From Eudorina sp. 2006-703-Eu-15 (taxonomy: Eukaryota > Chlorophyta > Chlorophyceae > Chlamydomonadales > Volvocaceae): a stretch of 64,000 bases of DNA. Position 1 is the first letter of the stretch; every line of letters starts with the position of its first letter. Below the pieces are notes generated by a model. The model searched no databases and was not told where the DNA came from. It saw only the letters and a program-made list of their open reading frames with translations. The DNA is taken from contig BDSI01000075.1 in the NCBI GenBank assembly GCA_003117195.1, positions 488,852-552,851 of the forward strand, written 5' to 3'. Made by a program: the position numbers and the translations under genes. This document shows, in pieces, positions 4,101 to 37,633 of the stretch.

Positions 4101-6629
4101 CGCACCCCGCACCCCCGCACCCCCGCACCCCCGCACCCCGCACCCCCGCACCCCCGCACCCCGCACCCCCGCACCCCCGCACCCCCGCACCCCGCACCCC
4201 CGCACCTGTAATCCGGGCGGCCCTCCTGACCCAGCAGTCCGAACAGGTCCTCCCCCAACTGGGGCGGGGCCCAGTAATCCGACTCCAGGGAGGGGGCTAC
4301 GGCCGCAAAGTGCTTGTCGAAGAGGTACAGCGGCATCTCGTCGCGGTTGGCCTGACTGTACGACAAGTAGGTGGTGAAGGGCATGGGCATGTTGCCTGCG
4401 GGGAAGCGGGTGCGGAGTGCGGCCACCACCAGCGCCGAGGGGGGGATGGGGGCCGGGGGACGCGGCGGGGTGGCGTGGGGTTACAATAATGAACTATGTG
4501 CCCAGGACTGAAGTAACCCGACACGTGTGGCGTGGGGTTGGGCGGGGCGGGCCGGAGTGGGACAGGTAAGGATCACGGGCAGGCGCGCGGGTTGGGCGTT
4601 GTACGTTGCGAGGCAGACGTCCGCAGCTCCGTACAGCGTACACCCCAACCGTCTCTAACCAGCTTCTAACCGACTCACCCACAATGACCTCCCGCTCTCC
4701 AAACACCTCCCTCAGGTAGCTGGGGCTCCACTTCCGCAGGGCGGGCCAGGAGGGCATCACGTCCTGGTGGGTGGGAGGGGGAAGGAGGGGAAGAGTGTGG
4801 CGGGGGTGCGGTGCCTCGTTTGCGGTGTAGCTGTCTTATGTGACATATGGGTTGGGGGAAAGGAGGGGAGGAGGGCGGCGGATTCCGGGGTCTAGGCGCT
4901 GTGCGCACTGGGAGAGAAGCTTCGCGACACAATTGCCGTACACCCTTTGCTCCCTTCCTCACCGTTAGTACGACGGGTCGGTTGGGTATCTCGTACTCTT
5001 GCCGAAACTGCGCCAGTGTCAGGCCGCTGCGCCTGCGTGTGTGTGTTTCGGAGGGGAGGGGTACCCGTGAGCACCATTGCGGCGGGGTCCCGGGGGGCCG
5101 CGGCGGCGGGGCCCCGGGGGGCCGAAGCCTGTCACCACACCCCTTGTGCGATGGGAAAACGAGAGGGGTGAAGGGGCCAACAATCACCCGCTTGCCGTAT
5201 TCAACCGCTTGCCGTACCTAGTCGTACTATACCGTACACGCACCTGTCGATGTTGTCCACCTCCAGCCAGTCGTACGGCAGCTCCAGAGTGGCGCAGAAC
5301 CAGGGCTGGTACAGCAGGTCCGAGTAGAACCCCCTCACCCGAAGGTAGCGCTGAGGGCCGCAGCCTCCGGGGATGCAGCGGAGCAGCCTCCGGCGCCGGC
5401 GGCTGCGTCGGGACCCCGGCCCCGGCTTCGCCACCGCCGCCGCTGCTGCTGCAGCCGCTGAGTACGGCCCCGGCCCCGCGACGGCGGCGGCGGCGGCCTC
5501 CTCTCCGTCAGGTGCCGTCGTACGCTCCTCCACCTCCACCTCCTCCTCCTCCTCCTCCTCCGCCGCCGCCGCCGCCGCCGCCGCTGGCGTGTTGTCACCC
5601 ATCGGCGGCTGGGTCCGACGCCGTTTGCTGCCGCGTTGCCCGTCCGCCTCCTCCGCCAGTACCGCCGCCGCCGCCGCGGACCGAGCGGCCGCGGCTCGGC
5701 CCTTCCGACCCCGTTCCTGTGCTCTGACGTCCTCGTCCTCCTCCTCCTCCTCCATGATAGCCACCTTCTCCCCCTCTCCCTCCTCCTCCTCCTCCTCCTC
5801 CTCGTCCTCTTCCGCGCCCTCGCTGCCTTCCTCCTCATCCTCCGCCGACCCGCTTTCCTCACCGCTGCTGGACCCCTCCCCCTCCTCCTCCTCATCGCCC
5901 TCCCCGCCGTCGTCGCTGCCGTCACCCCCCTCGTCGCTGCTGCTCCCCTCCATCTCCGAGCTGTCCGCCGCGCCGTCCCCATTGGCGGCGGCGTCCCCGC
6001 CGCCTCCGCCGCCACTGACCCGTGGGACCATGCCAGTGGAGACCAGGTAGGTCCGCTGCCAGGTGCCACACCAGGTGAACTGCCCGCCCAGCTCCTGAAG
6101 AGGGGGAGGTTCGTGGGGTTTTACAGGTGTGGGGTTCGGAGGTATGGGTTCCGAACCCCCGGGATGGGGCGATGGCGCGCTGCCCTAGGTCCGATCAAGT
6201 TCACAGATTCACTTCATTCAGATCTTCGATCCGGGAATACTCAAAATAGCATCCTGCCACGCCCCCATGAACCCTCCAGCCAGACCCGCAACGGCACATG
6301 GGCCCCCACCTGCGGGATCGGGCCCCCGGTCCCACAAGGGGGCCGCGCTGCCGCCCTGTCCTCCGCGCCGAAAAACAAAATCACACCGGGGGTTCCCGCT
6401 TCCCGGGGAACTCCTCGAGCAGCCACGCGACCCCTCCCCCCCGCTGACTGCAGCCCCAGGGGCCGCCTCACCTCGATGGCCATGCCCCTCCAGATCTCCT
6501 CCAGGTTGGCGAAGCAGTAGAGGGACTTGCTGGCCAGGGCCAGGCGACCCAGATCGCGGGCTCGCAGGGCCCCGCTGCCCAACACCTCCAGCAGCAGCGC
6601 ATCGCTCAGAACGGAGAGGGCGCCCAGGC
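940..6629 (-). CDS. JMJ22: F-box + JmjC protein, JMJ22/JMJD6-like (5' end incomplete)
   Basis: Exons (+ coordinates, read right to left) are 6472-6629, 5244-6094, 4963-5032, 4679-4763, 4206-4395, 3339-3564, 2808-2891, 2349-2443, 1607-1720 and 940-1369. All junctions keep frame, giving about 767 residues plus a missing N-terminus. The first listed exon encodes an F-box-like segment (LGALSVLSDALLLEVLG through FANLEEIWRGM). The JmjC core follows, with the iron ligands visible in SSFHVDPNATSAWN (His at 3522-3524, Asp at 3516-3518) and in GWWHCALNLE (His at 2826-2828). The tail ELVSG...FKFGF matches plant JMJ22. Relatives are Fe(II)/2-oxoglutarate oxygenases acting on histone arginine or on lysine, and an F-box suggests SCF ligase contact. 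Oddities are a long acidic insert with a KRRR nuclear-localisation-like patch and a C-terminal polyglutamine run. The first exon should end with one base of a split codon, and I could not place it. Confidence 0.9.
1048..1110 (-). repeat. (CTG/CAG)21 repeat encoding polyglutamine
   Basis: There are 21 uninterrupted CTG triplets on the plus strand, read as CAG on the coding minus strand. They form a Gln21 tract in the last exon of the JmjC protein, between a Gly/Phe-rich stretch and the conserved C-terminal FKFGF end. Confidence 0.95.
2689..2768 (+). repeat. CCCCCCTTGA tandem repeat in an intron
   Basis: About eight units of a 10-11 bp repeat (CTTGACCCCCC) lie in the JmjC gene intron between exons 2349-2443 and 2808-2891. 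Confidence 0.85.
3187..3240 (+). repeat. Intron motif family 2, copy in the JmjC gene
   Basis: Begins GGGTGTGCCCGGGTTCGTTC, continues through a TCGGGTTTATTT block, and ends CAATTTAACC. The same string recurs at 52488-52545, 58270-58320 and 61318-61369 in GRV2 introns. Here it is antisense to the host gene and near the 5' end of that intron (2892-3338). Confidence 0.8.
4022..4204 (+). repeat. CACCCC/CGCACCCC minisatellite in an intron
   Basis: Tandem units of GCACCCC and GCACCCCC fill the 5' part of the JmjC gene intron (3565-4205), directly after the donor site at 4205. On the coding strand they read as G-rich GGGGTGC repeats. Confidence 0.9.
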
Positions 6630-7504
6630 CTGTGTGTGGGACCAGGGGGGTGGGTGGGTGCGTGTGTGCGGTGAGCGGTGAGTGGGGCGGCGCGGAAGGA
6701 GGACTCCAAGATGGGGTTCGTGAGAGAATTGAGTGGTCGTTGCCTGATAGGAATCAAGATTGGGTGATAACCTGACAGGAGGTGTTCTTCGGGGAGGGAG
6801 AGGGGCAGTGCGGGTGATGGGACGGCAGGGCAATCGTCTGATGCGGTCTGATGTCGTGCGGGCCACCTCGCCGGCAGCCATGGAACGCCGAGATGCCGTC
6901 CGGGCACGGCGGACGTCTGAACCTAGTAATCGGGTAGCAGCAGTAAACGGTGGTAAGATTGCGTTAATGATGTGCAACAGACTCTTTTGTGGCGGCTACC
7001 GGGGTGAAATAAGGGAGCTGATGTACAAACCGGTCCATGGAGGTCATGTGCGGCAGGCAGGCACGCAGTGGCTTACGCTACATGACTTATGTTAATATAC
7101 CTGAGTCCCGTATATTAGGTCCACCGCCTTTCATGTAGTAGTTGCCCCATGGCTGTATGCCAGTGGGATGTTCCATGGTGACGGCGTGACTTGTAAGGGG
7201 GCAAGTTTCTAACTTACTTTTTATCAGGGAGTTTTAGAACTTAACGTATAACTCCAGTATGACGCTAACTAGGGGAACGCACTCACTCGGAGCTTCGGGT
7301 GTTTTAGTTCGGTTAGCGGCAGGTATCCTCCGAAACCTGGAAACAATTCGATAAACGAAATGCTTTCGCGGGATATGCAGCAAATCTGATTTACATGTAA
7401 CACGTAGGATATAGCTGTTGATATATATCTGCCACGAGTGAGTTATCATCCGGCGGCGCCTGGAATCGTAGGCGAACATTCCTTGACCCCTTACATCCGC
7501 ATCC
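6630..7504. other. Divergent intergenic region
   Basis: This is the spacer between the minus-strand JmjC gene and the plus-strand gene at 7505. It must hold the missing first exon of the JmjC gene and both promoters. Candidate minus-strand ATGs exist near 6880 and 6977, but none gives a convincing donor with the required one-base overhang. The right half is AT-richer than the surroundings. No RNA gene is recognised. Confidence 0.5.
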
Positions 7505-9780
7505 ATGAGCGCCAACGACGAAAATATCATCACCGATAATAAAATTTCCGAGCACCCATCGGAACGACATCCGCATATGGGACAGGCGGGTGTCGCCGCT
7601 GACACGACCGCGCCCGGCCCGGCTGATGCCGGAGTAGTGGGCACGTGCCCCAGCAATGACGGCGCGCGCGAGGACCTACCTTCACCTTCTAGCCGAGCAA
7701 CCCTTCCGCCCGGCTACCGGCTTGTGCGGGTTGAACTCCAGGGGGCCCAGACGGGACCGTCAAAACGCATCGTTGACGACCTGCCCGTGGAGGTACGGCC
7801 CTGTACGGCAAGGTACCTCCGACCCGCTGTCCCCCGAAACGAACGAATCCCCCGAGGGCCCCCGCCCAACCACCTCGACCTCAACCCTTAGACCCCCTAA
7901 CCTCCGTCTGGGTTGCGGAGCGCTCACCTCGCCACAAACCCTGGGACGTCTCCGCCGCCCCGACCCAATCCCCCCGCGCAGGTGCTGCCCCGCCACACCT
8001 TCCTGGAGCTGTGCGCCGCAGCGCTGGCGCGCGTGCCGGGCGCGCCCCAGGAGTACGGCGTGCAGGTACGGCACCCGTGGGCAAAAGGGCTCTTGCGCCC
8101 GCGCTGCAATATACTTTCAAACACAGGGAAGTAAGTCACCCCCCGGGGGGGTACGGCGGCTGTGTACGGGTCATGTACGACGGTCATGTACGACACCATC
8201 GCTCGAAGCTCCTCATTCCGGGACAGCACCGCTGAACCTGTCCTCGAGCGGACAGGAGCTCGAGCTCCCCGGTCACCAGTCGCCCCGAAACCAAACCGAG
8301 CAGAGCAAAGCTTGACCCCGGATCCCGGATCGCGCCCCCAGGCTTTCCTGGTGGAGGGACCTGTCCGCGTACCCCTGGCGGACCCCCTCACGCCCGCCGC
8401 CGACACCCTGCGCAGCTTCTCCCCCGCCGCCTCACTGCTCTTCCTCGTGGACCCGGACGCGCCGGTGCCGGCGGCGGGCCGCAGCGGCCTGCGGGTCAGC
8501 CCCCGCCTGACGTCGGCGCGGGGGCAGCGCCGGTGGCTGCGACGGCTGGCCGGGGTGGCGATCGGAGTGGCCAAGGTACGGCAAGTACGATACGAATACA
8601 AAATAGGTCGCCCCCAGCGCGCTCGTCTCTTCGGTCTTGGTTACTTGCTGTGCCGAGATGGGAAAGCTCTCCCTCCGGAAACCATTCAAACGCCTGCTCC
8701 TCGCGTGTTTGGCCCCCCTTCCGCCCTTCCCTTCCCTCCCCCCGCTCCGCGGCAGTTCGTTTTGGCGGTGGAGGTGGCGGCTCTGGTACAGGGAGGGCTG
8801 CGAGGCGCGCTGCGGCGACTGACGGGGCGCAGCGGCGGCGGCGCCGGCGGTCCGGACAGCGGCGTGGGCTCCGAAAGCGAGGCGGTATTGGACGCCGTGG
8901 CGGACTACGTCAGCGGGCGGGCGGACCTCCGCTCCCTGGAGCGTTTCGACCCGCGGGACGTTCGGGCCGCGTTGGAGGCCCTGGACACGGAGGTGCTCGA
9001 GCAGGTGGGGGGACGGACCCGGGGGCGCTCGGGGGGACAAAGGCCGGATCAGACTCCAGGGAGGAAGGGGGAGGGGATATTGCGGCCCCGGAACTCCCCG
9101 GGTCTCCACCACACACCCCGGCGGGCGTGGCCATCACCCGGCCCGGCCCTCACCACCGCCGACCGGTCGCACCACTGCCAACCGGCAACCTTTGCAACCC
9201 GCAAGGATGGCCCCCCACTGCGCACCGTTTCGTTACAAGTTGGGCCCTTCCAACCTCTTCCCTTCCCCCTCCTCCCTTCCCCCTCCTCCCTTCCCCCTCC
9301 TCCCTTCCCCCCGCGGCGCAGCTGGATGTGCCCGACCCCCGGGCCGCTCGGGCGGCCGTCTCCAACATCCTGCGACAGGTCCGGGAGCAGGAGCAGGAGC
9401 TCGCAAAGGAGCTCGCCGCAGCGACGGCCGCCGCAGACGCCGCCAACGCCGACGCCGCTGACGCCGACGCGGCTGATGCGGGTGCTGCGACCTCGGGTGG
9501 CAGTGGCAGGGAGGGTCCCATGGGCGGTGGCAGTAGCAGCAGCAGCAGTGCTGGTGGCAGCGGCAGTAGCAGCCACGGCAGTAGCAGCGGCCGGCCGTCA
9601 TTTCGAGCGACGGACTCAGCAGCAGCGGCGGCGGCGGGGGTTGCGGCGGGGGACACGGGGGACGCGCTGCCGCAGCCGATGCCCGGGTTCGGTCCCCCGC
9701 CGTCGCGCGTTGGGGTGGGTGCTGGAGGTGGAGGTGGAGGGCCAACTGGGGGCCCGAGCCGAGGGGTGAGTTCCCGGTAA
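7505..9780 (+). CDS. Unrecognised protein, five exons, about 437 residues
   Basis: Exons are 7505-7792, 7982-8065, 8342-8575, 8756-9004 and 9322-9780. Every intron is phase 0 with good GT-AG borders, and three donors read GTACGG. The start is the first in-frame ATG (MSANDENIITDN), followed by a Ser/Pro-rich region. More conserved-looking segments are PPGYRLVRVELQ, VLPRHTFLELCAAALARVPG, LLFLVDPDAPVP and an Ala/Val/Leu-rich helical stretch around WLRRLAGVAIGVAKFVLAVEV. A Glu/Gln/Ala coiled-coil-like segment (REQEQELAKEL) follows. The C-terminus is a low-complexity Ala/Asp then Gly/Ser tail. I recognise no family. Coding status rests on frame-consistent splicing and contrast with the flanks. A TGTAA signal lies at 9805. 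Confidence 0.65.
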
Positions 9781-11199: not shown

Positions 11200-14100
11200 T
11201 CACCCGGGGCCACCCGGAGCCGCTCGCGGCCCCACCCCGCCGCCCCCCGCCGCAACCCGCGCCCGCCGCCGCAGCTCCGGCAGCATCCCCCCGAACAGCT
11301 GCCACAGCAGCCGCAGCCGCGGCCGCACCCGCCCGCCGCCCGCCGCGGCCAGCCGTACTGCCCGCCATTCCTGTTCGTACAGCGCAGTCTGGCAGGCCAC
11401 CGCGGCCTGCTGCGCGCAGGGCCGTCTCGCGGCGCCGGCGACTCGGCAGACCTCCGGGGGACACAGCGCCGCCGCCGCCGCCGGCGCCGCAGCCGGCGAC
11501 GACGATGGGGTGAAGCCATGGGTAGTGCCGGCGCCGGTGCCCCCGCCCCTGATGCCGCTGCTGCTGCTGCCGTCCTCCATCGGCCTAACCGGATATGTGC
11601 TCAGCTGGCTCGAAACTAATGGATCGAGTTGGTGAGCAAGTTCGCGGCCCGGGAGGTGGCGCTGATCAGGTGTACGGCAGTACGACTGTAGCATTCGCAT
11701 CCAGCACGGACAGCTCAGCTGCGCCGCCGCGCCGCCACCGCGGCCGCCGTCGCTGCGCTCGGCCTCCGCCGCCGTCACCGCCGCCGCTGCATCAGCATCA
11801 GCATCAGCAGCGGCGGCAAGAGTTGTGCCGCCCGGAGCAGCGCCGCTGATCTCTTGCAGCACCCTGACGTTCAGCTCATCCCCCAGCTGCTGCTGCGGCT
11901 GCTGCTGCCGGGGGGCCTGCTGCTGCTGCTGCTGCTGCGGCGGCGGCGGTGGCGGCGGTTCCAACGGGGGTTCCGATGGCTCCGAGACCGTCCCCATGAT
12001 GCGGTCGGCCCCTAGGAGCGCTCGCTGAAGGGCGCGCGCCGCCGCGAGGGCGGGTGAGGTGGCGGGTCCGCTCCCACCGCCCACCGCCGAGGCCCCGTCG
12101 CCGCCGGCGGACCCGGCGGCGGCGGGGGATCGGTTGCGGCTCAGCTGTTGGTGCTGGTATAGCAGGGAGGGGTCGGCGTCCTGTGGGACCGTGGGGGGTC
12201 ACGGTCGGTGGTTGGTTGTTGACGGTTGGTGGGAACCCTGGGGTGGCCGTACCAACCACCTACCGACCACCTAGCAACCACCTTCCGCTGCCCACCCACC
12301 CACCTGAGCGCGTAGAGCCGCCCAGCTGAGCTGCTCCCACTCCTGCGCCGCCGAGCACCAGTGCGCGCGCAGCTGGAAGCGCACAACCGACCCGTGGGTC
12401 GCTAGCACGGCTTCCGCGAGCCGCACGTCGGGCAGGTCATCCGCCATGACCCGTGGGTCCAACTGTGGCAGCCGGTACTCGGGCCGCTGCAGCAGCTGCG
12501 GATCGGATCCGAATGGAGGGAGGGGATGGGGAGGTTGAGGTTGGGGTGGCGGCGGGAGTTCCTACACTCTCAGGAAGGAGGTCTGCTCGTGGTGACCTGG
12601 GTAGGGTTATACACCGCAGGCATGGGGCATGGGGCATCGAGGTGGCCCACGGGTCTTCCGGGTCGCTGCGGGGTCGGTGTGTTGGGTTACACGGCACCGG
12701 AGCCTGCCCCGCAGGGAAGCGCGCGCCCGTCGGCGCGTGTCGCTCGTGGCGGGCAGATGTACGGTAACCGCGATAGACACCCGGTCGTACCTCGTACATG
12801 CGCGCCAGTATGGAGGTGGAGACGCGGACCTTCCTCCGCCAACCGGGTGGCAGTATCGGTTGAGCTCTGGGGTGGGCGCGGTGGCGCGAGGGGAGCCCGA
12901 GCAGAGGGGACGGTGGTTTTGAGGTGATGGTCCCAGGTGATGGTCGGGGACCCATGGGTCGGGTGGGCGCGCCCAAGGGGGCCCAGCCCTTGCACCCGCC
13001 CCATCAACACACACCCTGCCGGTGGGCCTCTCGCTAAACACACCCTGCCGCGCAACGGTGGGCCCCCCGCCCCCCTCACGACTCTTGACTCACCTGGCCT
13101 CAACAAAGCACTCTCCTCCAGCGGCACCGCCAGCCTCCCCCGGTCCTGGTCCCGGTCCCGGTCCCGGTCCGGGCAGGAAACCCGGTGGGCCGCCCTGGCG
13201 GACTCGCTGCCCCGCCGGCCCGCCACCGGTCAACCCGTCAGCGGACCCTCCGCCACCGCCACCACCACCGCCACCACCACCACCACCACCACCGACATCT
13301 CGTCGCAGGTGCGGCGGCGCCAGCGCGCGGCGGTTCCGGGCAGTGCCCCCCGCGGGGACAGCCCCGCTGGCAGGGGTCGCCCCATGTGTGGCGGCGGCTG
13401 ACTGGCAGGCCGGCGGGGGGTTCGTTCGGAGTGCCTCTTGAATCTGGCCCGGACCCGGACCCGGACCCGGACCCGGACCCGGACGCTGCAGTGATCGCCG
13501 GCGGTGGCCCGTGGACGCCGAGGCGCCCGGCGCCGGCCCGGCCGCGGCGGCGGCGGCGGCGGCGGCGGCGGCTGACACTGTGGCGGCATCGGATGCTGCT
13601 GATGCTGCTGCTGCTGCTACTGCTGATGACGACATCGATGATGATGACGAGGATGATGACGAGGAAGACGGCGGCGGCGGCGGCGTGGCGCCGTCGGCCC
13701 AGTGCGGTGGGCGGATCCTGTCCCGCAGGTGGTACGGCACCCGCCGGAAGGTGCCGGTCTTGGGCGCGTCCAGCGCCTCGTTGTACAACCTGTACTGCAC
13801 GGGGTACGACAGACAACAGCGAAGTGCGCGGGGTTACGGAGGCCGGGGCCGCGGCTGGAATCGCTGAAGGGCCGTCGTGCCGCCATCTACATGTGCCAGG
13901 ACATCAGGGTGTAGGAAGGTGCGACTCCATCGCCCTCCGTTGGTGCGCACCTGCACAGCATGATGCTGTACGGATGATCGGCGCCGTACTCATCCGCGCA
14001 CCAGCACCACAGCCGGTACGCCTCCTGCACCACGCCGGCGGCCTCGTGGCAGAACATATACCGCCGGGTGAGGTACTCCTCCTCCGCCTCCGCCTCCGCA

Positions 14101-17100
14101 TCCTCCGCATCCTCCCCCTCGCCTGCCGCCGCCGCCGCCCACTGCTTCCCTGCTGCCGCCGCCGCCGCCGCCCCGGCCTCTGCCTCCGCCTTGTCGCCGG
14201 GCGCCTCAGCGGCAGGCGGCGGCAGGGCCTCCCAGCCGGCCGGAGGCTCCAGAACCACCCGGTCCGCCGGGAACGGCTCCCCGTGGGAAGAGGATGATGA
14301 TGATGATGAAGAGGAGGAGGCGGAGGCGGACGACGAGGTGGTGGTGGATGAAGAGGCGGTCACGCGGGGTTCGGAGCGGAGGCGGTGTGTGCAGGTGCTG
14401 CGGGTGCTTGCCATGCCCCCGGACAGCCTGTCCTCCTCCCCCGCAGCCTGCTCCTCCACCTCCCGCCCCACACCGGGGTACTCCTCAAACTGGCTCACCA
14501 CCTGAGCTCACCACGATTGGGGGCAGGGGGTGGGTGGGCGGGGTGGGTATAGGACATTGGTATAGACACATTCAAACTGCGCTGCTGCCAGAGCAAAGGT
14601 CCGGTGAAGAATCAACTGTACCAGGATCAGGGGGTGGGCGGGGTGGGTAGGTGTGCGGAAGGGTGGGCGGGGTGGGTAGGTGCGCGGATGGGTGGGCGGG
14701 CAGTGGAGCCGACCCTCCTCCACGAGAGAGGAGGTCAGTGTATTGTGTTCTCCAGGGAGGGAGGGAGGGAGAGGCCTGGGCTCCAGGGGCGGGGGGTGGA
14801 TGCGCGAACGGCCTGGGGCTCCAGGGGGGGCGGGGACGGGACGAGGGTGTCCCGTGGGTCGGATCGTGGTCGGCAGCCGGTCGACCAACCGACTGCCCCC
14901 ACGTCCGCCCTAACGATGATCCTCCTCGCCGCCGGCCTGACGTCGTGTGCCTACCTGCTCGTCCCAGATCAGCGTGTACAGGTCGCCATCGTAGTCGCCG
15001 CCCGACATGTCGTGCACCGGCGGCGTCGATCCCGCCGTCGAGAAGATCAGGAGCCCGCCGCCGGCGCCGGCATCACCGCCGCCGCCGTCGCAAACGCTCC
15101 CATCCCGTGGGTCGGGCCCCTGCCGCCCGCCGTCCTGCCCGGCCCCGGCGGTTGGGAGGCCCATCTGCTGCAGCAGCTGCGGCGGCGGCGGCACCAGACG
15201 CAGCTTCCGGAGATCCCGAGGATGCAGTCCGGGAAACCTGCGACGAGGGTGCGCCAACGACCCGGGTGTTGCGGCTGTCCTTCACCCAGGTGAGGGGGAT
15301 GATGGGAGATGCGGCAGCGCCGACCCGCGGGTCACAAGCCCCCGGTGCGATCCGTACTCCTCCCTCCCAAGCTGCTAGAAGAGGGGAAGCCCATACTGGC
15401 AGTGTACGGCAGTGTACGGCAAACGGCTTTCTGCTACTAACCTGGATCGCTGGCTGGCTGCCTGGCTGACTGCCTTCCCCCGCTACTGGCCGTTCACGTC
15501 GAGCTTCGACTGCACTCACCCCGCACTCACCCCGCCCGCCGGCCCGCACCCGCTCGCCACCCACCGATACACCACGACGTCGCGGCCGCGCCGCTCCCTC
15601 GGGCACCTCGGACCACCGCCGCCGTCGACTGCTGCTCCGTCGCCGCCATCGGTTCCTCCACAACCAACCCCCAGCACCTCCGAAACCAGCCCATCGCGGC
15701 CACCCGAGCGCAGCTGCCCCCTCTCGTCCGCACCGCCCAGCTCCAGAACCAAACCCGGCAGCACCACGCAGCAGCAGCCCGCCGGCACGCTGCCGCTGGG
15801 GTCGGGCAGCCCCATCAGGGAGGCGCTCCACCGCAGCGGCAGCCGCAGCTCCTGCAGCTGTCGCCAGGCGCGCGTCGCTGCGGCCTGAGGGAGGCGGGAG
15901 GAGGGGCAACACGGGCGGGTCGTGATTGATGGCGGGCAAAATCCAACCCCCCAACCCCAACCCCAATACCGAGCCCCAGCGACCGCCCACAGCAGGCAGC
16001 TGTACCCCGGGTGCGGATGTGGCTGGGCGTGGGTGCGTGCACCGGTAGTGGCAGGGGTGGGGAGGTGGAGGTGTGTGGAGCGGCGTGGATGCCGCCAAAA
16101 CGGCGGGAGGGCTGTCATCCCTCCGCCCTCCGCCCTCCCCAGCGGCGGCCCGCAAGCCTCCCACCCCCGAGTATCGCACCAGCCCCCTGCCCCCGCGGAG
16201 GAAAGCATCATTCATATAAAAAAGCAACCCCGCCGTACCGTAGCCGTCGGAGGCGCGTTCCGTACAATGCCGTACTGTACGGCCGGGATGCAGCGCACCT
16301 GCAGCAACTCCCGGGTCCTGAAGTCCATTGGAGGTCTTCTCCCCGCGTCGCCGCCACCGCCGCCGCCACCGCCACCGCCACCGCCACCGCCACCGCCGCC
16401 GTCTGCTGCCTCTGCCGCCACTGCCGTCTGCTGCTGCTCCCCTTGCTGCTCTCTTGGAACCGCCTCGTACGGCGACCCGTCGTCGTACTCCGCCAGCGCC
16501 GCCGCCAGAGCGGCGTCGCCGCTGCGGGCAGCCAGCCCCCGCGCCGCCGCCAGGTCGCCTCGCGCCGCCGCCAGCACCCCACTCAACTCGGTGGTCAGTG
16601 CGGCCAGCAGCGGACGCCAGTCCACACAGCAGGCGCTGAGGAGCAGCAGCAACGGCCCGTTTAGGCGCGCGACTGCGCGGGGTCGAACTGGCGACTTGCG
16701 GACGACCTCCAGCGCCGCTGAGGTCGTCGCCGCCGCGGCCGGAGGCCGGGGTCTTGAAATCAGTGCTGAGTGGGTCGGCTCCCCGTAGAGCGAGGTGTTG
16801 GAGGAGGAGGAGGAGGAGGAGGGAGAGAAGGCGGGTGAGGAGGGGCCGAGCGAGCTGCGAAGGTCCCGGAGCCGGGTTTGGAGTTCGCTCCAGGAGGGGG
16901 CCTTCACCTGGGAGGCTCGCACCAGCAGCGACACGCCCGGCGGCAGCCCCGAAACCACAGGTGTGAAGGTGCCCTTGATGAGCGCACCGACCCGCGGGTC
17001 ATAGACCCGCAGCTGCACCGCCGGCTCCGCCCGCGCGACGCGCCCCATCGCCGCCCCCGTGTCGGCTGCCCCGGCTTCGCCGCCGTTGCCCACCCCATTC

Positions 17101-17352
17101 TGCGGACCCGACGGCTGTAGCTGTGACGCCGCCGGCGGCCGCGGTGGCTGTAGCTGCAAGGGCGCCGCCACCGGCACCCCTTGCTGGACGTACGGTATCG
17201 TGCCGGCGAGCCGCGCGCAAATGAGCCCGTTGCCGTCCGTCATCACGGAGCCGGTACACGACAACACGTCGTTCGTGTACGACACAGCGTCTGAGCTCAG
17301 CCGCATGGGCCAGGTGCCGCTGAGGAACAGCTCGGGCCGACTGGCGGCCTTG

Positions 17353-17385
<33 letters not shown>

Positions 17386-19858
17386 CCCGCGGTGTCGCTG
17401 GCGGCGGCCGACGCCCGCCGCGCCGCGCCCGCCGCCGTGTCCACGTCGGCCAGAAGCTGCCGTACCGCTGACGGCGGCCCCAGGCTCCGAAACCCATGTC
17501 GTACATCATCGTACGAAAGCGTATCAAGAGCGAAGAAGCAGATCTTCTCCCCCGCCTTACCGGCGTCCTTGACCACCAGTCGGCGGTAGCGACGGCCCGC
17601 CACCACCATCCCCTCCGTCAGCAGCGCCGCCAGGGGATCGTCGGCACCGCCGTCACCGCCAGCCTCCTCGTCGCCCGGCGACGCAGCTGCCGTTGCAGCT
17701 GCCGCTGCCGCTGCCGCTGGCGCGGACTGACGAGGCGCGGGCGCGGGCGCTGGGTAGCCTCCTCCCCGCCGGCGGTCTCGTTGGGGCCGCATGTCGGCAG
17801 TCAGTCGGAGGAAGAGCAGTCGGTCCAGGGAGGCTGCTGTGGGGGATTCCATCCGGGCCCCCACCCCGCGCGGGAAGACGGGGCGCGTGGGAGCGACAGG
17901 GAAAGAGTGAGATAGTGAGAACGAGAGGGTTAAGGGAAGCGGAAGAGGTATCTCAGCCGACGCATCATCATCACCATCATCAAAAGGGGGGCTGCGGTGC
18001 GAGGTGGCGATGCGAATTAACGAGTGGCAGCCGCTGGCCACAATGAACGAGTGCCGTACACCTGGGCCCTGCCCCATAACATCCGACATCCTAACACGCG
18101 CGGGGAGGGCCCGCAGCTTTAAGGAGGGGGCCCAGTGGGGCATCCCATGGGACTGACGGATCCCGTCAGCGCGGGGCAGGACCCCGGTGCGCCCTCCCGT
18201 CGAATCCGGCGCGGCTGGCAGCTATTCGTTGATTGTTCCACGCTTGCTTGTTTTTCATCCGTCCGTGGCATCGGCCGTCCGTTTGTGCCGTCCCCGTCCC
18301 AAGCCCCAGCCCCAGGGGCCCGCACCCACCCACCGAGCGGGTGTCGCTGCAAGTACGAGCCCGGGATGTCGTACATGTCGTACATCATGCGCTCGAGACG
18401 CGGCCGGGCCCCTCGAGGGCCCGCCGCGGCCATCCCGTCCAGCCCCACCACCGCCGTCAGCGCTCGGCAGCCGTACATCGCCTCCGCCTCTGCCGCTGCG
18501 TGTTGTCCGCCGCCGTCGCCGCCGCCGCCGCCGCCGCTGCTGACCTGGCCGGGTGTCCCCGCCAGCGCCGATTCGTCCGCCAGCCTGCTTTGCCACGCGG
18601 GCCCTGCTGCCTGCCCTGCCCCGGGCCACCCGATGGGGCGCAGCTCCGGGTTCCAGACATAGCGACACTCCCCCTCCGCCTCCGCCTCCCCTTCCGCCCC
18701 GCCACCTCCACCGCCGCCTCCGCATCCGCTGCCTCCTCCATCCGCCACATGAGCCTCAGCCGTTGACCCCTCCGCCGCCTCCCCGTCGGGCCACAGCACC
18801 TCAACCGCCGGCACTGCACCGTCGCTGGGCAGCCGTACCTCCGGCAGGTCCCGGAGCGGCGGCGCAGGCGCGCGCGCCCGCGCCGCTGCCTCCAGCCCCC
18901 GCCGGCCGCTGTCGTACGATAGCCACCCCGACGACAGGAACACCAGCAGGGCCTCCCCAGGGCTGAGGGTCCCCCGGGTGGTGCCGCCGGGGTGCATTGT
19001 CGCCGCCGTCGCCGCCACCGCGGCCATCGGGGCGGTCCCCACACCCCAACCCTGCCCGCCGGGCCCAACTGCATGGGGGGCAGTTCCGCCCCAGTTCCCG
19101 TCGGAGCTCGAGCTCGAGCTTGAGCCCGCGGCTGCGGCTGCGGCTGCGGCTGCCAGTTCATCCAACGCCGCGGCCAGCTGGTGTGGCGGTGCGTCCAGCA
19201 GTGCGGCCAGACGAGGCAGAGGGAGGGCGGACAACACGATGCTGTGCTGGTGGAGCAGCAGGCTGGGGGGTTGAGAGAGAGAGAGGGGCGCGGGGGGGTA
19301 GAGGGACGGAGGAGCGGGACGGGGCGGGGTGTTAGTGCACAGGGCAGCGGTGCAAGGACGAGGGCAGGGGCGAAGGCGTGCGCGGGTGTGACACGAGGCG
19401 AAGAGGGGTGGGAAGACACACGGAGCCGCTCGCGGGGCAGAGCAGTCGAGGCGATGTGGGAGGGGGGGGGCGGGGGTTGAGAGCAATGTGTGTGTCGGGG
19501 GGATAGCACGTCGAGGTGGGATGGGGCAGGTGTCGCGGAGGCAGGACGCAGGTCATCGCCTGTAGTGGTGTGGAGCTGTGATGGAGTACCGCAGGGGCAG
19601 TTGGACTATGATGACGCACCGTAGGGGCAGTGGGAGCTGCAGGTAGAGGCGGAGCTTGGCGGCGAGTTGCCGAGCGCGCGCGGGGTCGGGTTCGCAACCA
19701 TGCCGCTTGGCGAGCTGCGCCGTCAATGCCTCCGGCCCGCAGTTGCTGTTCCCAGTGATTGCCGATAGTACGTGCCAGTCTCCAAGTATCTCGTCCAGGA
19801 GGCGATGCTCCCGGTCGCTGCTTACGGCTGGCCGGGCCGATTGGCGCGCGTTGGCCAT
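11200..19858 (-). CDS. RNA-dependent RNA polymerase (eukaryotic RDR)
   Basis: Exons (+ coordinates, read right to left) are 19620-19858, 18334-19262, 16299-17836, 15565-15884, 14955-15237, 13951-14501, 13094-13789, 12791-12866, 12304-12495 and 11200-12180, giving about 1,934 residues in frame. RDR blocks appear in the expected order. TDGNGLICARLA (about 588-599) corresponds to the usual SDGIGKIS. VYDPRVGALIKG (about 667) follows. LPLRWSASLMGLPDPSG (about 917) is the double-psi barrel entry. VVVYR is spliced to FPGLHPRDLRKL (about 1005-1021), equivalent to NPCLHPGD. SGGDYDGDLYTLIWDEQ carries the metal-binding Asp 1090, 1092 and 1094 (bases 14982-14996). ALDAPKTG (about 1292) comes later. RDRs make dsRNA for Dicer in RNA silencing. 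There is no recognisable RRM, and large Ala/Gly/Ser/Gln inserts inflate the length. Start MANARQ at 19858 was chosen; an in-frame ATG at 19900 is possible. The exon ends at 12866 and 17836 are best guesses. Confidence 0.9.
14546..14590 (-). repeat. Intron motif family 1, copy in the RDR gene
   Basis: Read on the minus strand, this gives AGCGCAGTTTGAATGTGTC followed by an ACCAATGTCCTATACCC block. It sits near the 3' end of the RDR intron 14502-14954, in the sense orientation of that gene, as do most copies in GRV2 introns. Confidence 0.75.
14633..14706 (+). repeat. ~30-bp tandem repeat in an RDR intron
   Basis: Roughly two and a half units of GGGTGGGCGGGGTGGGTAGG plus GTGCGCGGA lie in the intron between RDR exons 13951-14501 and 14955-15237. 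Confidence 0.75.
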
Positions 19859-20172: not shown

Positions 20173-22023
20173 ATGCAGGCACCCATGCAGCTGTCGCGCC
20201 GTGGCTCAATTGTGCGCCGATGTGAGCGCACTGCGTGCAGGTAGATATCTGTGAAGCAGCGCTCCACACGTTACCTTTTCGCTGCGGCGCCCAACCACCT
20301 TGCGTCCTATTTCATAGGCCATACACGCCGGTCCGGCCTTCGTGGCAAGTCGTTCGGTCATCCCCAACTACAAAGGTAATTCAATTTCGCCAGTCCTCCA
20401 TGTTTGCTGGCCGTGGTGCACTTCCTCCAACAGCCATGTTCGGCGGAACGCCTGCGCAGGAGCCCGAGGTGCAGGCTAAAAGCGAGGCAGAAATTGCCAC
20501 GGAGAAGTATGGTCTGGAGGCAGGCTTGTTCAAGGTGCGGTGTACCACCGTTTGGCTGACCATTCCCACGCTCTGACGTTCTCGGTTCACGAGCTATCCC
20601 GTGCCCCTGCATGTCCGCTTGCCCCAACACAGGCCCTCACCTCTAAGGACGGGGAGGGCAAGTTGAGCAGCACGGAGCAGGCGAAGCAGCTGCTGACCCA
20701 GTACGGCTCCGCGTACCTGATAACCTCCATCTCCTTCGCCATCGTCTCCTTTGCGGCTTGCTATTTTGCGGTCGACGCGGGTGGGTCTGAACCTGACATG
20801 ATGCGGCAGCGGTTTGCTGGACTGCACTGGTGCATCTGTGTTCTGCCTGCCACCACGCGGGTTACGGCAAGAAAGCTCGGTGCTCGCCGAACAACTCGTC
20901 CCACGTCCGCATTTCCACTTGGACGGAGCAAATGACCTCAGCCGGTTGTTGCCCATAAACTGCAGGCGTGGACGTAGCGGCGCTGCTGTCAAAGGTCGGC
21001 ATCCAGGTATCGGACACGAGCGAGAAGGTGCGTCCCCCGGGGGTGTGTATGGAAGGTCCACGGGCGCACATGCATGGGCTGTGCAGGATGCCCGGTGCAG
21101 GCAGGGTGCAGGGCAGGGTGCAGGGCACGCCGTGTTGCAAGGGGCATCCAGGCGCCCGAGTTGGGGCAGTCAGCCGAGGGGCTGCGGATGTGTTGTTGGT
21201 GGGTGGGACGACGCAAAGGAGCGCGTTGTGGCATCGTGGTTTCGGATCCACGTGGGTTTGGTTCACGTGGGCTGTTTCTCCGGGGGCAGCTGCCCTTGGT
21301 GCCATGTTGGTGTGGGGGGTCGCGTAAGCAGGGAGAGCTTATACAGGCTGGGATTTGGGGGGATGACAGAGAAGCGAACTGGCGGACGAGACGGCCCTTA
21401 AACCATCACGAATGCGCGGGGACGGAGACTGGCTGGGCGTGGATGCCTTGGCAGCGGGGATCGAGCCCTGCCTCAGCGGGCCGAAGAGCCCATGCCATAC
21501 AGGGCAGCTCCATGGGATGCCCATGCCATGGAGCTGACCTGTATGGCAGGCTCTTCGGCCCGCTGAGGCAGGGCTCGATCTCCGGGCGGGGGGGCACCGT
21601 TTCGGCTGGTCCAGTACTGCGCGGGAGGCAGTCTGGCGGTCCGCTGTCGTTGCGTGTCGGTACCCAGATGAGATGAGGATCGGGACGCGGGGTACGACGA
21701 CTCGGGACGGGGCGGTCGTCCCCCGGGGTCCGTGGGGGTGTCCCGGTGCCCCCGGGCCCCATGCTCAATCACCGTGTAATGTAACAAATAAAGCGGCCTG
21801 CTAGCGGTTTCTAAACTGAGGGGGCGCTTGCGGACCTGACGCCGTCTCCCCGTCGCGCGCTGCCCCTCTGCCGCTGCTCCCCGATGTGCAGGTGGGGACC
21901 TTTGCGCTGGCGTACGCGGCCCACAAGGCGCTGTCGCCCGTGCGCTTCCCGCCCACGGTCGCCCTGACGCCGGTGGTGGCCAAGTACTTGGGGAAGAAGA
22001 AGGAGTCGAGCGGCAGCCAGTGA
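20173..22023 (+). CDS. DUF1279 / FAM210-like membrane protein, probably plastid
   Basis: Exons are 20173-20240, 20318-20534, 20633-20780, 20966-21027 and 21892-22023, encoding 208 residues with consistent phases. The N-terminus (MQAPMQLSRRGSIVRRCERTACR) is basic, Ser/Arg-rich and free of acidic residues except one Glu, as expected of an organelle transit peptide. The DUF1279 pattern is visible: YGSAYLITSISFAIVSFAACYF (from about residue 119) forms a membrane helix, GVDVAALLSKVGI follows, and the last exon has AYAAHKALSPVRFPPTVALTP. FAM210 proteins are organelle membrane proteins of poorly defined function. Plant and algal members are mostly chloroplastic. The fourth intron is unusually long for this gene and contains a large hairpin. 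An alternative start at internal ATG 20401 would drop the transit peptide. Confidence 0.85.
21460..21579 (+). repeat. Long near-perfect inverted repeat (hairpin) in an intron
   Basis: Arms 21460-21515 and 21526-21579 pair around a 10-base loop. The outer 30 bases pair perfectly, from ATCGAGCCCTGCCTCAGCGG on the left arm inward. The inner part has only a two-base bulge and one mismatch. It lies inside the fourth intron (21028-21891) of the FAM210-like gene. A miRNA-type precursor or a small TIR element are the two plausible readings. Confidence 0.9.
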
Positions 22024-22688: not shown

Positions 22689-26765
<4,077 letters not shown>

Positions 26766-34506: not shown

Positions 34507-36664
34507 ATGTCTCAAATTGTTTTCCAAAGCAAATGCTCCGCTGCCGCTTCGGCGCGGACGACGCGTAGCCGGCGGGCGACGGTGCCCAGGGCTCAGTTGT
34601 GGATGCCGACATCGGAGGTCAAGTAAGTTACGAAGGGTGTACGTAGTCTTGTGGTGATCTGCACCTGGTGATGGACTCACGTTCGCGGCTGCGATACGCG
34701 ATGGCAAGGCGTACCACATCTTCACTTGGGCGGCGCTAAGAATGCACCTGTTGTATGTATTAATAACTTTAAGTTCTCATTCTCATGATTGGCATCATGC
34801 CGAACCACACTGACTCGTGCTCACGGACTGGCGGACTGGCCGGTCCCCTTACCACGCAGGCTGGCGGTCTCGTCGCGAAACCCGCACCCGCCAGTAGTCT
34901 GCCAGGGCCCGCCCCCGCCTAACCCCCTGGTCATCGAGCGCTTCCAGGGCGTCGTCTCGCAGCTGTTCCAGCAGGTAAGGCCCCTCCTCGCCTGGTATCT
35001 ATCGCTAGGGAATCCCCGAGGATATCGCGCGGTATGCCAGCCCGCCACGTTTTACACCATCCACCCGTTTGGTCTCCCATGGCGCCCGCGCATCCTCTCC
35101 CCCCTCAGCGAGCCAAGGGCGGCGCGAAGCATCTCCCCTCTAACCCTGCCATCTCCGTCTGCACCTGATCTGCACCCGATCTGATCTGATCTGGGTCCGC
35201 CTTCATCCACTCCCTCTCTCTCTCTCTCCCTCCCACTCCGTCCACGCACCCCGCACAGCGCATCGTGCGGCTGGGTGGTGCCGTGGACGACGACATGGCC
35301 AACCTGCTGGTGGCCCAGCTGCTGTACCTGGACTCGGTGGACCAGAAGAAGGACATCACCATGTACGTCAACTCGCCGGGTGGCTCCGTCACGGCAGGTG
35401 AGCCACCACCCTCGTTAAGACTGCTGCAGGGAAGCGTGTCCGCAGGAACGAATGAAAGGGGGGAGGAATAACGAATGGAGGAAGGAATGGGGAAGGAATA
35501 TGGGAAGGAGTGGGGAAAAAGGAAGGCGCGGCTGAGGTATCTGGTGCATGTCTCGGGCGAGAATCAGTTACCCCGGCAGGCTGGCAGGGGCCGAAACGGG
35601 AAGAGGCCCGCCACAGACGAACCGGGTGTATGTCACGGGGGTTGCCAGTGTACCGGTTCCCCGGATCGAGGTGTGGTCTGCTCTGTATGGTGAGCTGGGG
35701 GCAGCTACATCAGGACAGCGAAGAGCGGGAGCTGGGCTCGTTCCCGCGGGGGCGAGATCGGATGGGCATTTGTGGCGTACGCATTGTTTACAACCCGTCT
35801 CCTGCGGGGCTGGTAAGGCTTGGGAGGTTTCGTAGTAACCGGGTGCAGGGCCAGCGGGATGCGAGGTGGTGCAAGACGCCGTGGTGGTGTGAGACCAGAC
35901 TGCGCCAAGCAACGCAATGCCATGTGCGCTAGGATGCATCTAGACCTGGATCTTTGTATCGCTGGGCCGCGTGCCGCATTCATAGTGGAAGATGCGCACT
36001 GCCAGACGGGAACAGCGGATGCCGTCGGCGGACCGGTTAGCCATCAGCGGGTCCCCCTCGGCGGTTTTATGCCCGCCTCCGCTGTGTTGCGGCGCATCGG
36101 CGCATCGGCTGCCGGACATCGTCGGGCCACGCTGCTGGTCGTGACGCATGTAGCGCTGGCCAGGGCGACCCCGGGGCGGTGTCCGGTGTGGAAGTCTTCC
36201 CGACCGCCCGTGCCCAACGATACCTTAAAGCGATGCCACGTTGCGGATCTAGAACAATTTATGCTGATCTGGAACTCCTTGTACGGACCTAGAACCGACC
36301 TCTCTCCGGGAGCCGGGGTTCCCGCGTTCGGATCTGGAACCTGCGCCGTGCCACTAAGCCCTGGCTTGGCCGCCTTTGGCCATGTCCTGGTGCGCTGGCG
36401 GGATGGTGGCAACGCTGACACCGATATGTGGCCCGCCGGCACACGCACCCAAGCCCTCACACCCTCGCTCACTCACTCGCACCTCCGCCTGTCGGGCCCT
36501 CCCGCCCGCCCCCCCCGCCTGCCCCCTCCCATCGATCCGACCCAGGTATGGCCGTGTTCGACACCATGCGGCACATCCGGCCCGACGTGAGCACCTGCTG
36601 CATCGGCATGGCTGCGTCCATGGGCGCCTTCATCCTGGCGTCGGGGCAGCAGGGCAAGCGGTAC

Positions 36665-36699
<35 letters not shown>

Positions 36700-37227
36700 T
36701 CTGGGTGGTGCCCAGGGCCAGGCCACGGATATCGAGATCCAGGCCAATGAGATTCTGCACCACAAGCTGACGCTGAACGGCTACCTGGTAGGTGGCAACG
36801 TGTGTGTTGTGACGAAATCCGCCCGACCCAAACCAAGCACCAACATGTGGTTTTTTTCGGGGGGTTTGAATATACAAACAAGCCCAGTGTGGTGGGGGTT
36901 GGGGCGGGGTGATGGCAGGCCTGGGTCGGGTGGCAGACGACCAGGTGAAGCTCACATCACCCGCCTCAAGTCCTTGGGAAGGCGACGTCACATAGGCAGG
37001 CGTAGTCACATGAACTCATCCAAGTGCCGTCCTGACACGTGTCCCGTTCCTGTTGCGATACGCAGGCTCAGTTCACAGGCCAGTCGATGGAGACCATCAC
37101 CAAGGATACTGACCGCGATTTCTTCATGTCGCCTCAGGAGGCCATTGAGTACGGTCTCGTTGACGCCATCATCGCGAAGCCGCAGCTTCTGCAGACCCGC
37201 GAGGTCCCGGTTGAGGTGCAGGCGTGA
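34507..37227 (+). CDS. CLPP5: Plastid Clp protease proteolytic subunit ClpP5
   Basis: Exons are 34507-34622, 34860-34974, 35259-35397, 36546-36787 and 37066-37227, encoding 257 residues. The first exon is a Ser/Ala/Arg-rich transit peptide ([20 protein letters not shown]). The mature enzyme has the complete Ser-His-Asp triad: Ser148 in GMAASMGAF, His173 in MIHQPLGG and Asp222 in DTDRDFF. The Ser-His and His-Asp spacings equal those of E. coli ClpP. The phrase [20 protein letters not shown] and the region through [25 protein letters not shown] match nuclear-encoded ClpP5 more than ClpP4. It is a subunit of the stromal ClpP/R barrel that works with ClpC. The long third intron (35398-36545) shows no second gene. 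Confidence 0.95.
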
Positions 37228-37400
37228 GGGCCGTGAGATAGATTTTGAGCAGGGACCGAGATGCGGGGCTCGTCGTCTGTACTATTTCATTTTATGTGCC
37301 TTTGCTGAGGTGTTGTATGTGGTGCGTGCGGAGCTGAGTCGGAACAGCTGGGACCGTTACCGTACGATGCATCCCAGAACGGTTGATGGGGCCGATATCG

Positions 37401-37405
37401 TGTAA
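37401..37405 (+). terminator. TGTAA polyadenylation signal (CLPP5)
   Basis: TGTAA about 174 bases after the CLPP5 stop. A second TGTAA lies near 37574, just before the GRV2 start, so CLPP5 and GRV2 are close head-to-tail neighbours. Confidence 0.6.
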
Positions 37406-37633
37406 CGTGCAAGTGTTGCCTAAGCTTGCAGTGCGCAGTATCGAGTCTGTAGCGCTCACTTCAATCAAAATGACTGGCGAATGCCATCTGTAAGTCGATA
37501 GGCTCTCGGACATAACGTTCATCTGGTTGTCCAACTCCCTGAGACGACCAACTGGATCAATGCTCTATTTTTGTAAAGCAAGTGCGGTTGTCACGGGTTA
37601 AATCGTCGGTGAAAGGGTTCTCGATCGTGAAGG

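Follow-up and report, generated by a model that had tools for sequence, protein, structure and literature searches.

A gene for a divergent RNA-dependent RNA polymerase in Eudorina

We describe a gene for a eukaryotic RNA-dependent RNA polymerase (RDR), named RDRA, in the volvocine green alga Eudorina sp. 2006-703-Eu-15. The gene lies in a stretch of 64,000 nucleotides (the window, G000:C75:488852-552851, where C75 is contig BDSI01000075.1) from an assembly of 181.2 Mb in 3,033 contigs. Overall, its sequence makes it quite probable that RDRA is an intact, resident RDR, most likely an active one, which belongs to a divergent clade beside a canonical RDR on contig C57 (RDRB) and which should make double-stranded RNA (dsRNA) for the small interfering RNAs (siRNAs) of Dicer and Argonaute. 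The original prediction, made from the letters of the window, had proposed a full-length resident eukaryotic RDR in a lineage whose relatives Chlamydomonas reinhardtii and Volvox have none. The full-length resident enzyme stood, but the absence from Volvox did not.

The exon model of RDRA

Joining minus-strand exons by GT-AG boundaries and phase gave a model of ten exons with consistent phases, encoding 1,934 amino acids (aa) with no internal stop (Table 1). The third-position GC of the spliced coding sequence was 0.795. Of ten minus-strand open reading frames (ORFs) compared with Pfam, two matched the RdRP family PF05183 on their own: ORF 14913-15281 (E 1.5e-11, profile positions 417-450) and ORF 16215-18221 (E 3e-8, profile positions 60-178). 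A conserved block, VVVYR/FPGLHPRDLRKL, straddles the junction between exons 4 and 5, and SGGDYDGD lies wholly within exon 5.

The exon model could be checked against three orthologs, Vretimale_3370 of V. reticuliferus (P0001) and VaNZ11_000802 and Vafri_4404 of V. africanus (P0002 and P0003), because these proteins were predicted by others, though they were found by a search with the RDRA model. All three align with RDRA from residue 1. P0003 extends up to exon 5 and covers the first four junctions, P0002 extends into exon 7 and covers the first six, and P0001 extends into the last exon and covers all nine. The records of P0001 and P0003 are partial, and that of P0002 ends before the last exons too. 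The junction between exons 2 and 3 is the least certain, the Volvox proteins being one residue longer there. Splicing, the lack of internal stops and the ortholog alignment together bear out the ten frame-consistent exons that had been predicted.

Family membership and catalytic motifs

Spliced RDRA scored 107.8 bits against PF05183 (E 8.2e-31; curated cut-off 23.8), the sole Pfam family found at E 0.01; no RRM was detected in that search. The claim of a full-length eukaryotic RdRP was confirmed by this match, and a chance resemblance is ruled out by the PF05183 matches of the exon ORFs and of the spliced protein. A profile-profile comparison of the second half of RDRA (209 columns) with 16 canonical RDRs gave a probability of 98.3 and E 1.6e-14. 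In the PDB, a search with P0001 alone found no match. A single RDRA exon ORF had matched unrelated molecules there; the two alignments displayed were of a Gly-rich stretch (best 60 of 120 matches).

The motifs of RDRA include SGGDYDGD and FPGLHPRDLRK. The DxDGD loop of the catalytic Asp triad is kept as DYDGD in RDRA, P0001 and P0002, and P0003 stops short of it. The MTDGNG and HPRDLRK blocks are common to RDRA and all three Volvox proteins, and PKTG occurs in P0001 and P0002 as well. The PKTG lysine falls at chain position 923 of Arabidopsis RDR2 in an alignment whose local stretch scores -0.2 bits. In RDR2 the Asp triad is essential, and the part played by the histidine of Pol II may fall to Lys-923 in the putative trigger loop (PMC8713982, excerpt). 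For the block with the Gln and Lys of the initiating NTP, RDRA and P0001-P0003 have VQL/M-R...KG, with an insertion inside and an unclean alignment to the canonical rows. Since the polymerase-core motifs and the Asp triad are retained, RDRA would be expected to copy single-stranded RNA into dsRNA.

Orthologs in Volvox

The search with RDRA returned at least three matches, all from Volvox (8,000 scored candidates). Identity between RDRA and these orthologs was 52-55% overall and 68-69% in the polymerase core; RDRA differs from them by longer poly-Ala, poly-Gly and poly-Ser inserts. The orthologs have precomputed PF05183 matches, and one of them is named 'RDRP core domain-containing' in UniRef. 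They sit on Volvox contigs of 4.1-7.8 Mb, which supports the view that RDRA is resident in a volvocine genome, as the original prediction had argued, and dismisses contamination.

Among the matches listed, we found no relative of RDRA beyond the three Volvox proteins (8,000 and 7,999 scored candidates), and no protein named V. carteri in the searches with RDRA or RDRB (7,999-8,000 candidates each). The absence of RDRs from other volvocines cannot be inferred from this, because V. carteri went unmatched too, despite its reported RdRP.

A second, canonical RDR in the same genome

A whole-genome search with PF05183 (7 candidates scored; 6 exon matches overall) found two loci, one being that of RDRA and the other C57:212863-217412. 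Around the latter (region G000:C57:209500-219400), 17 exons were spliced into RDRB, a protein of 917 aa with both ends incomplete and no stops. RDRB shares with RDRA the Pfam family and the host lineage. It differs in its PF05183 score (314.8 bits), in having DLDGD and DPGDIR, and in a core identity to RDRA of 26%; its SGGDLDGD loop is interrupted by an intron. By sequence, RDRA is thus the odd member of a pair of RDRs, whose second, canonical member had been missed by the original prediction.

The search with RDRB returned at least 31 matches (8,000 scored candidates), which comprised fungal, animal, plant and metagenomic RDRs together with Vafri_14238 of V. africanus (P0004), a partial record that ends ahead of the catalytic loop. 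Since P0002 and P0003 are of the RDRA type and P0004 is canonical, V. africanus, going by these predicted proteins, also has both RDR types. As a separate observation, P0006, P0009-P0013, P0015, P0017 and P0018 form a tight family of RDRs of about 960 aa (nine clusters of 1-57 sequences, one group in the tree).

The position of RDRA among RDRs

In an unrooted tree of 32 rows and 450 columns (without P0003, P0004, P0024 and P0030), the RDRA clade was supported at 100/100, its stem measuring 3.07 changes per column. In a second tree of 32 rows, with 303 columns, which additionally omitted P0031 and P0034 and included fungal QDE-1 and Arabidopsis RDR2, the stem was 2.88 changes per column and the branch cutting off the clade had a support of 100/99. 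The clade is firm in these unrooted trees, and no firm neighbour was found for it; a clade with the fungal rows was not rejected (p-AU 0.222). Judged by the trees, RDRA is a member of an extremely divergent RDR clade that is common to at least two Volvox species.

We considered two origins for this clade. The first, which is possible though we hold it only tentatively, is that RDRA is an RDR-gamma of the QDE-1 type, so that volvocines kept both ancient lineages, with RDRB representing RDR-alpha and RDRA representing RDR-gamma. DLDGD is the mark of Arabidopsis RDR-alpha and DFDGD that of its RDR-gamma (PMC7960677, excerpt), and fungal QDE-1 has been assigned to RDR-gamma (PMC8713982, excerpt). 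RDRA has DYDGD in place of the DLDGD signature of RDR-alpha (RDR1/2/6, EGO-1, SAD-1), which RDRB does have. Among solved structures, the RDRA profile scored highest with QDE-1 (25.7, 22.3 and 22.2 bits), followed by Arabidopsis RDR2 (14.9 and 14.8 bits), and a canonical RDR profile showed the opposite order (674.5 bits with RDR2; 168.4 and 154.2 bits with QDE-1). RDRA shares DYDGD and M-x-DG with both QDE-1 sequences (PDB 2j7n and 5fsw), the SQ of the RxSMxK block with 5fsw, and IFST-x-G ahead of SGGDYDGD with 2j7n but not with 5fsw. With RDR2 (PDB 7eu0) it shares the Asp triad and the KTG lysine; RDR2 differs in its DLDGD and in its RRM (PMC8713982, excerpt), a domain for which RDRA gave no Pfam match at E 0.01. 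In the tree, RDRA and QDE-1 fell on one side of a branch, opposite 28 canonical rows, with a support of 92/93.7.

This support, however, is under the starred level, and RDRA and QDE-1 are the longest branches, so that attraction between them is possible. When QDE-1 was left out, RDRA moved to the plant-like side (90/89), and plant RDR-gamma (DFDGD) sequences were absent from the rows of the trees. The identity between RDRA and QDE-1 (24-25%, with 5fsw) did not exceed that with the canonical rows (22-30%). At the 38 columns that separate QDE-1 from the canonical consensus, RDRA was canonical in 7, QDE-1-like in 6, neither in 13 and mixed in 12. The tree relation to QDE-1 is therefore suggestive only, and so is a leaning of RDRA towards the fungal enzyme. 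That volvocines hold a canonical RDR-alpha (RDRB) beside a cryptic QDE-1-like RDRA, from a lineage easily overlooked by standard homology searches, strikes us as unlikely on these sequences.

The second origin, a somewhat doubtful one, is that RDRA arose inside the green algae as a rapidly evolving copy of the canonical volvocine RDRB. A clade of RDRA and RDRB was not rejected (p-AU 0.243 without QDE-1 and 0.145 with it), and the RDRA junction at aa 1009 (phase 2) is one alignment column off the RDRB junction at aa 491 (phase 0). On the other hand, none of the nine RDRA junctions matched any of the 16 RDRB junctions in both column and phase. In the best trees, which are unrooted, RDRB was placed among the canonical RDRs, with RDRA behind the firm branches of 100/100 and 100/99, and the two types are already separate in V. 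africanus.

Is RDRA an active enzyme of a small-RNA pathway?

In the proposed pathway, RDRA would copy single-stranded RNA into dsRNA, Dicer would cut this dsRNA into siRNAs, and the siRNAs would be loaded on Argonaute. For Argonaute, a search of the genome with Piwi gave 7 matches, 5 of them above the cut-off, at two loci (Table 1).

Several observations weigh against an active RDR working with this machinery. Plant-like, fungal, animal-type and combined fungal and animal RDR profiles gave RDRA only 30.5, 27.4, 38.1 and 43.3 bits; the same four profiles gave RDRB 269.9, 379.4, 509.4 and 571.7 bits. At 83 columns conserved in at least 90% of 31 canonical rows (a count that takes in the trivial start-Met column and a misaligned QxR..KG block), all three RDRA rows kept 40. 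RDRA failed 15 of 47 universal columns, about five of them in the misplaced QxR..KG block, where universal means agreement of the 80% canonical consensus (28 rows) with QDE-1. At the likely bridge-helix position (G886 of RDR2), a glycine conserved in nearly all RDRs (PMC8713982, excerpt), RDRA has Gly and both P0001 and P0002 have Asn, as judged by eye. Three of the 7 Piwi matches are interrupted by a stop, perhaps at exon ends. For Dicer, a whole-genome search with PF00636, PF03368 and PF14622 at E 0.001 found no match; the control genomes were silent with PF03368 too. Dicer-like pieces appeared only after the threshold was relaxed (E 0.26-1.04). Among the ORFs of this locus, one exon ORF reached 35 bits, above the Pfam cut-off, and two fell below it (18.3 and 16.3 bits). 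That the locus, on contig C103, encodes Dicer is plausible and weakly supported by its sequence.

These observations also bear on whether RDRA no longer polymerizes RNA, surviving in a scaffolding or RNA-binding role or as a decaying gene. Its large low-complexity inserts, its extreme stem length, the 43 of 83 columns not kept in all three rows, the 15 altered universal columns and the bridge-helix glycine, by eye not kept in P0001 and P0002, would fit such a protein. We nevertheless find it improbable, because the ten exons are open, the catalytic triad is present in RDRA and in both Volvox records that reach that far, and core identity between RDRA and Volvox is 68-69%. At the universal columns, 32 of the 47 are kept in all three RDRA rows, the triad among them; canonical rows under the same treatment kept 36 of 48 (a divergent Pleurotus RDR), 40 of 48, 42 of 49, 44 of 49 (RDRB) and 45 of 48. 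An active RDRA is the reading we prefer. That RDRA is expressed and enzymatically active, and that it serves to produce secondary siRNAs or to silence transposons, is inferred.

Genome context

The 166 matches of a genome search with the pherophorin domain (PF12499) mark the genome as volvocine, since pherophorins are a volvocine hallmark. Five of ten neighbouring ORFs matched Pfam above the cut-off. Among the neighbours of RDRA are genes typical of eukaryotes (FAM210-like, AAA, Clp protease, RME-8). RDRA itself is spliced, has orthologs in two Volvox species and was found at one locus in the genome, and viral contigs scanned with six peptide patterns from P0002, a scan that reaches close relatives only, yielded no relative. 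A foreign source, whether a recent transfer, contaminating DNA or a viral polymerase, is accordingly very improbable, even though no close relative of RDRA was found outside Volvox and an unsampled donor is still conceivable.

An interspersed repeat with the core ATGTCTACCAATTTCCTATACCC was also seen in the window, at 41109-41135, 41552-41578, 42397-42423, 43889-43915, 49952-49978 and 53288-53314. Its 27-base form with at most 3 mismatches occurs 6 times in the window and 0 times in 100 shuffles. With at most 1 mismatch it occurs at 1,657 places genome-wide, some of them tandem, compared with 0 for a reversed control. By eye, it is also present in the Dicer-like locus, and a degenerate copy lies in RDRA intron 5 near 14580. 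It is possibly a transposable or introner-like element.

Table 1. Features of RDRA, its surroundings and the candidate small-RNA loci. Positions are those of the window unless a contig is named.
Feature	Position	Strand	Evidence
RDRA gene, ATG 19858 to TGA 11200	11200..19858	-	splicing; PF05183 E 8.2e-31; alignment with three Volvox orthologs
Exon 1, aa 1-79	19620..19858	-	splicing; start aligned with Volvox starts
Exon 2	18334..19262	-	splicing; exon 2/3 junction least certain
Exon 3, first conserved half of polymerase core	16299..17836	-	splicing; ORF Pfam match
Exon 4	15565..15884	-	splicing
Exon 5	14955..15237	-	splicing; ORF Pfam match
Exon 6	13951..14501	-	splicing
Exon 7	13094..13789	-	splicing
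Exon 8, 76 bases	12791..12866	-	splicing; residues agree with V. reticuliferus
Exon 9	12304..12495	-	splicing
Exon 10, including stop	11200..12180	-	splicing; last ~75 aa lie beyond the partial V. reticuliferus record, no ortholog there
MTDGNG block, aa 588-593; canonical RDRs have F[ST]DGxG here, QDE-1 MNDGxG	17226..17243	-	alignments
KG of the QxR...KG block, aa 677-678	16971..16976	-	by eye; block poorly placed by aligners
FPGLHPRDLRKL block, aa 1010-1021; counterpart of NPCLHPGDIRVL	15201..15236	-	splicing; profile-profile comparison
Catalytic Asp-triad loop DYDGD, aa 1090-1094	14982..14996	-	splicing; alignments
PKTG, aa 1296-1299; Lys opposite Lys-923 of Arabidopsis RDR2 (putative trigger loop)	13753..13764	-	alignment stretch of -0.2 bits; role from PMC8713982 (excerpt)
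FAM210-like domain	20480-20932	+	Pfam
AAA ATPase exons (FtsH-like by eye)	24010-25263	+	Pfam
Clp protease	36419-37402	+	Pfam
RME-8 N-terminal domain	37631-38158	+	Pfam
F-box-like ORF	6247-6753	-	below Pfam cut-off
Piwi (Argonaute) locus	C117:192925-194820		Piwi-domain match
Piwi (Argonaute) locus, contig of RDRA, ~132 kb off	C75:365420-367700		Piwi-domain match
Dicer-like locus, pieces of two RNase III domains ~3.2 kb apart	C103:226355-230077		relaxed-threshold search

RDRs and small-RNA amplification in green algae

An RDR in Volvox is not new. For V. carteri, a 2016 paper (PMC5093975, excerpt) reports one Dicer, one RdRP, a HEN1 homolog, VcAGO3 with one more AGO gene, and phased siRNA loci. 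The case resembles ours in that a volvocine has an RdRP, in V. carteri together with one Dicer, two Argonautes and the phased siRNAs; the V. carteri enzyme is known here by that report and not by sequence, and it could be of the RDRA or the RDRB type. Together with the PF05183 matches of the V. reticuliferus and V. africanus orthologs, this overturns the statement that Volvox has no RDR, and the close orthologs already annotated there take away the novelty that had been claimed. The statement that C. reinhardtii has none agrees with an excerpt of PMC7676726, in which the alga is described as being without conserved RDRs and a non-canonical RDR is posed as a question. Phased siRNAs are nonetheless reported in C. 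reinhardtii (PMC7676726 and PMC4457045, excerpts). Elsewhere, Coccomyxa has an RdRP (PMC3446292, excerpt), and the RDR-like homologs of chlorophytes or green algae separate from the land-plant groups (PMC7994812 and PMC5569507, excerpts). What is already known, then, is the enzyme family and its annotation in Volvox. In the literature searched, we found no account of two RDR types in volvocines; their coexistence, and the extreme and possibly QDE-1-like character of RDRA, are apparently undescribed.

The phased siRNAs reported in C. reinhardtii, an alga described as having no conserved RDR, raise the question of whether an RDR amplifies small RNAs in green algae. The RDRA clade offers a specific candidate gene for such amplification, along with a profile for searching. 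The difficulty of recognizing this clade suggests caution over verdicts of 'no RDR' that were reached with plant queries. As Volvox is open to laboratory transformation, what each of the two RDRs contributes to transposon-derived phased siRNAs would be directly testable there. RDRA may help to explain the production of secondary small RNAs in volvocines.

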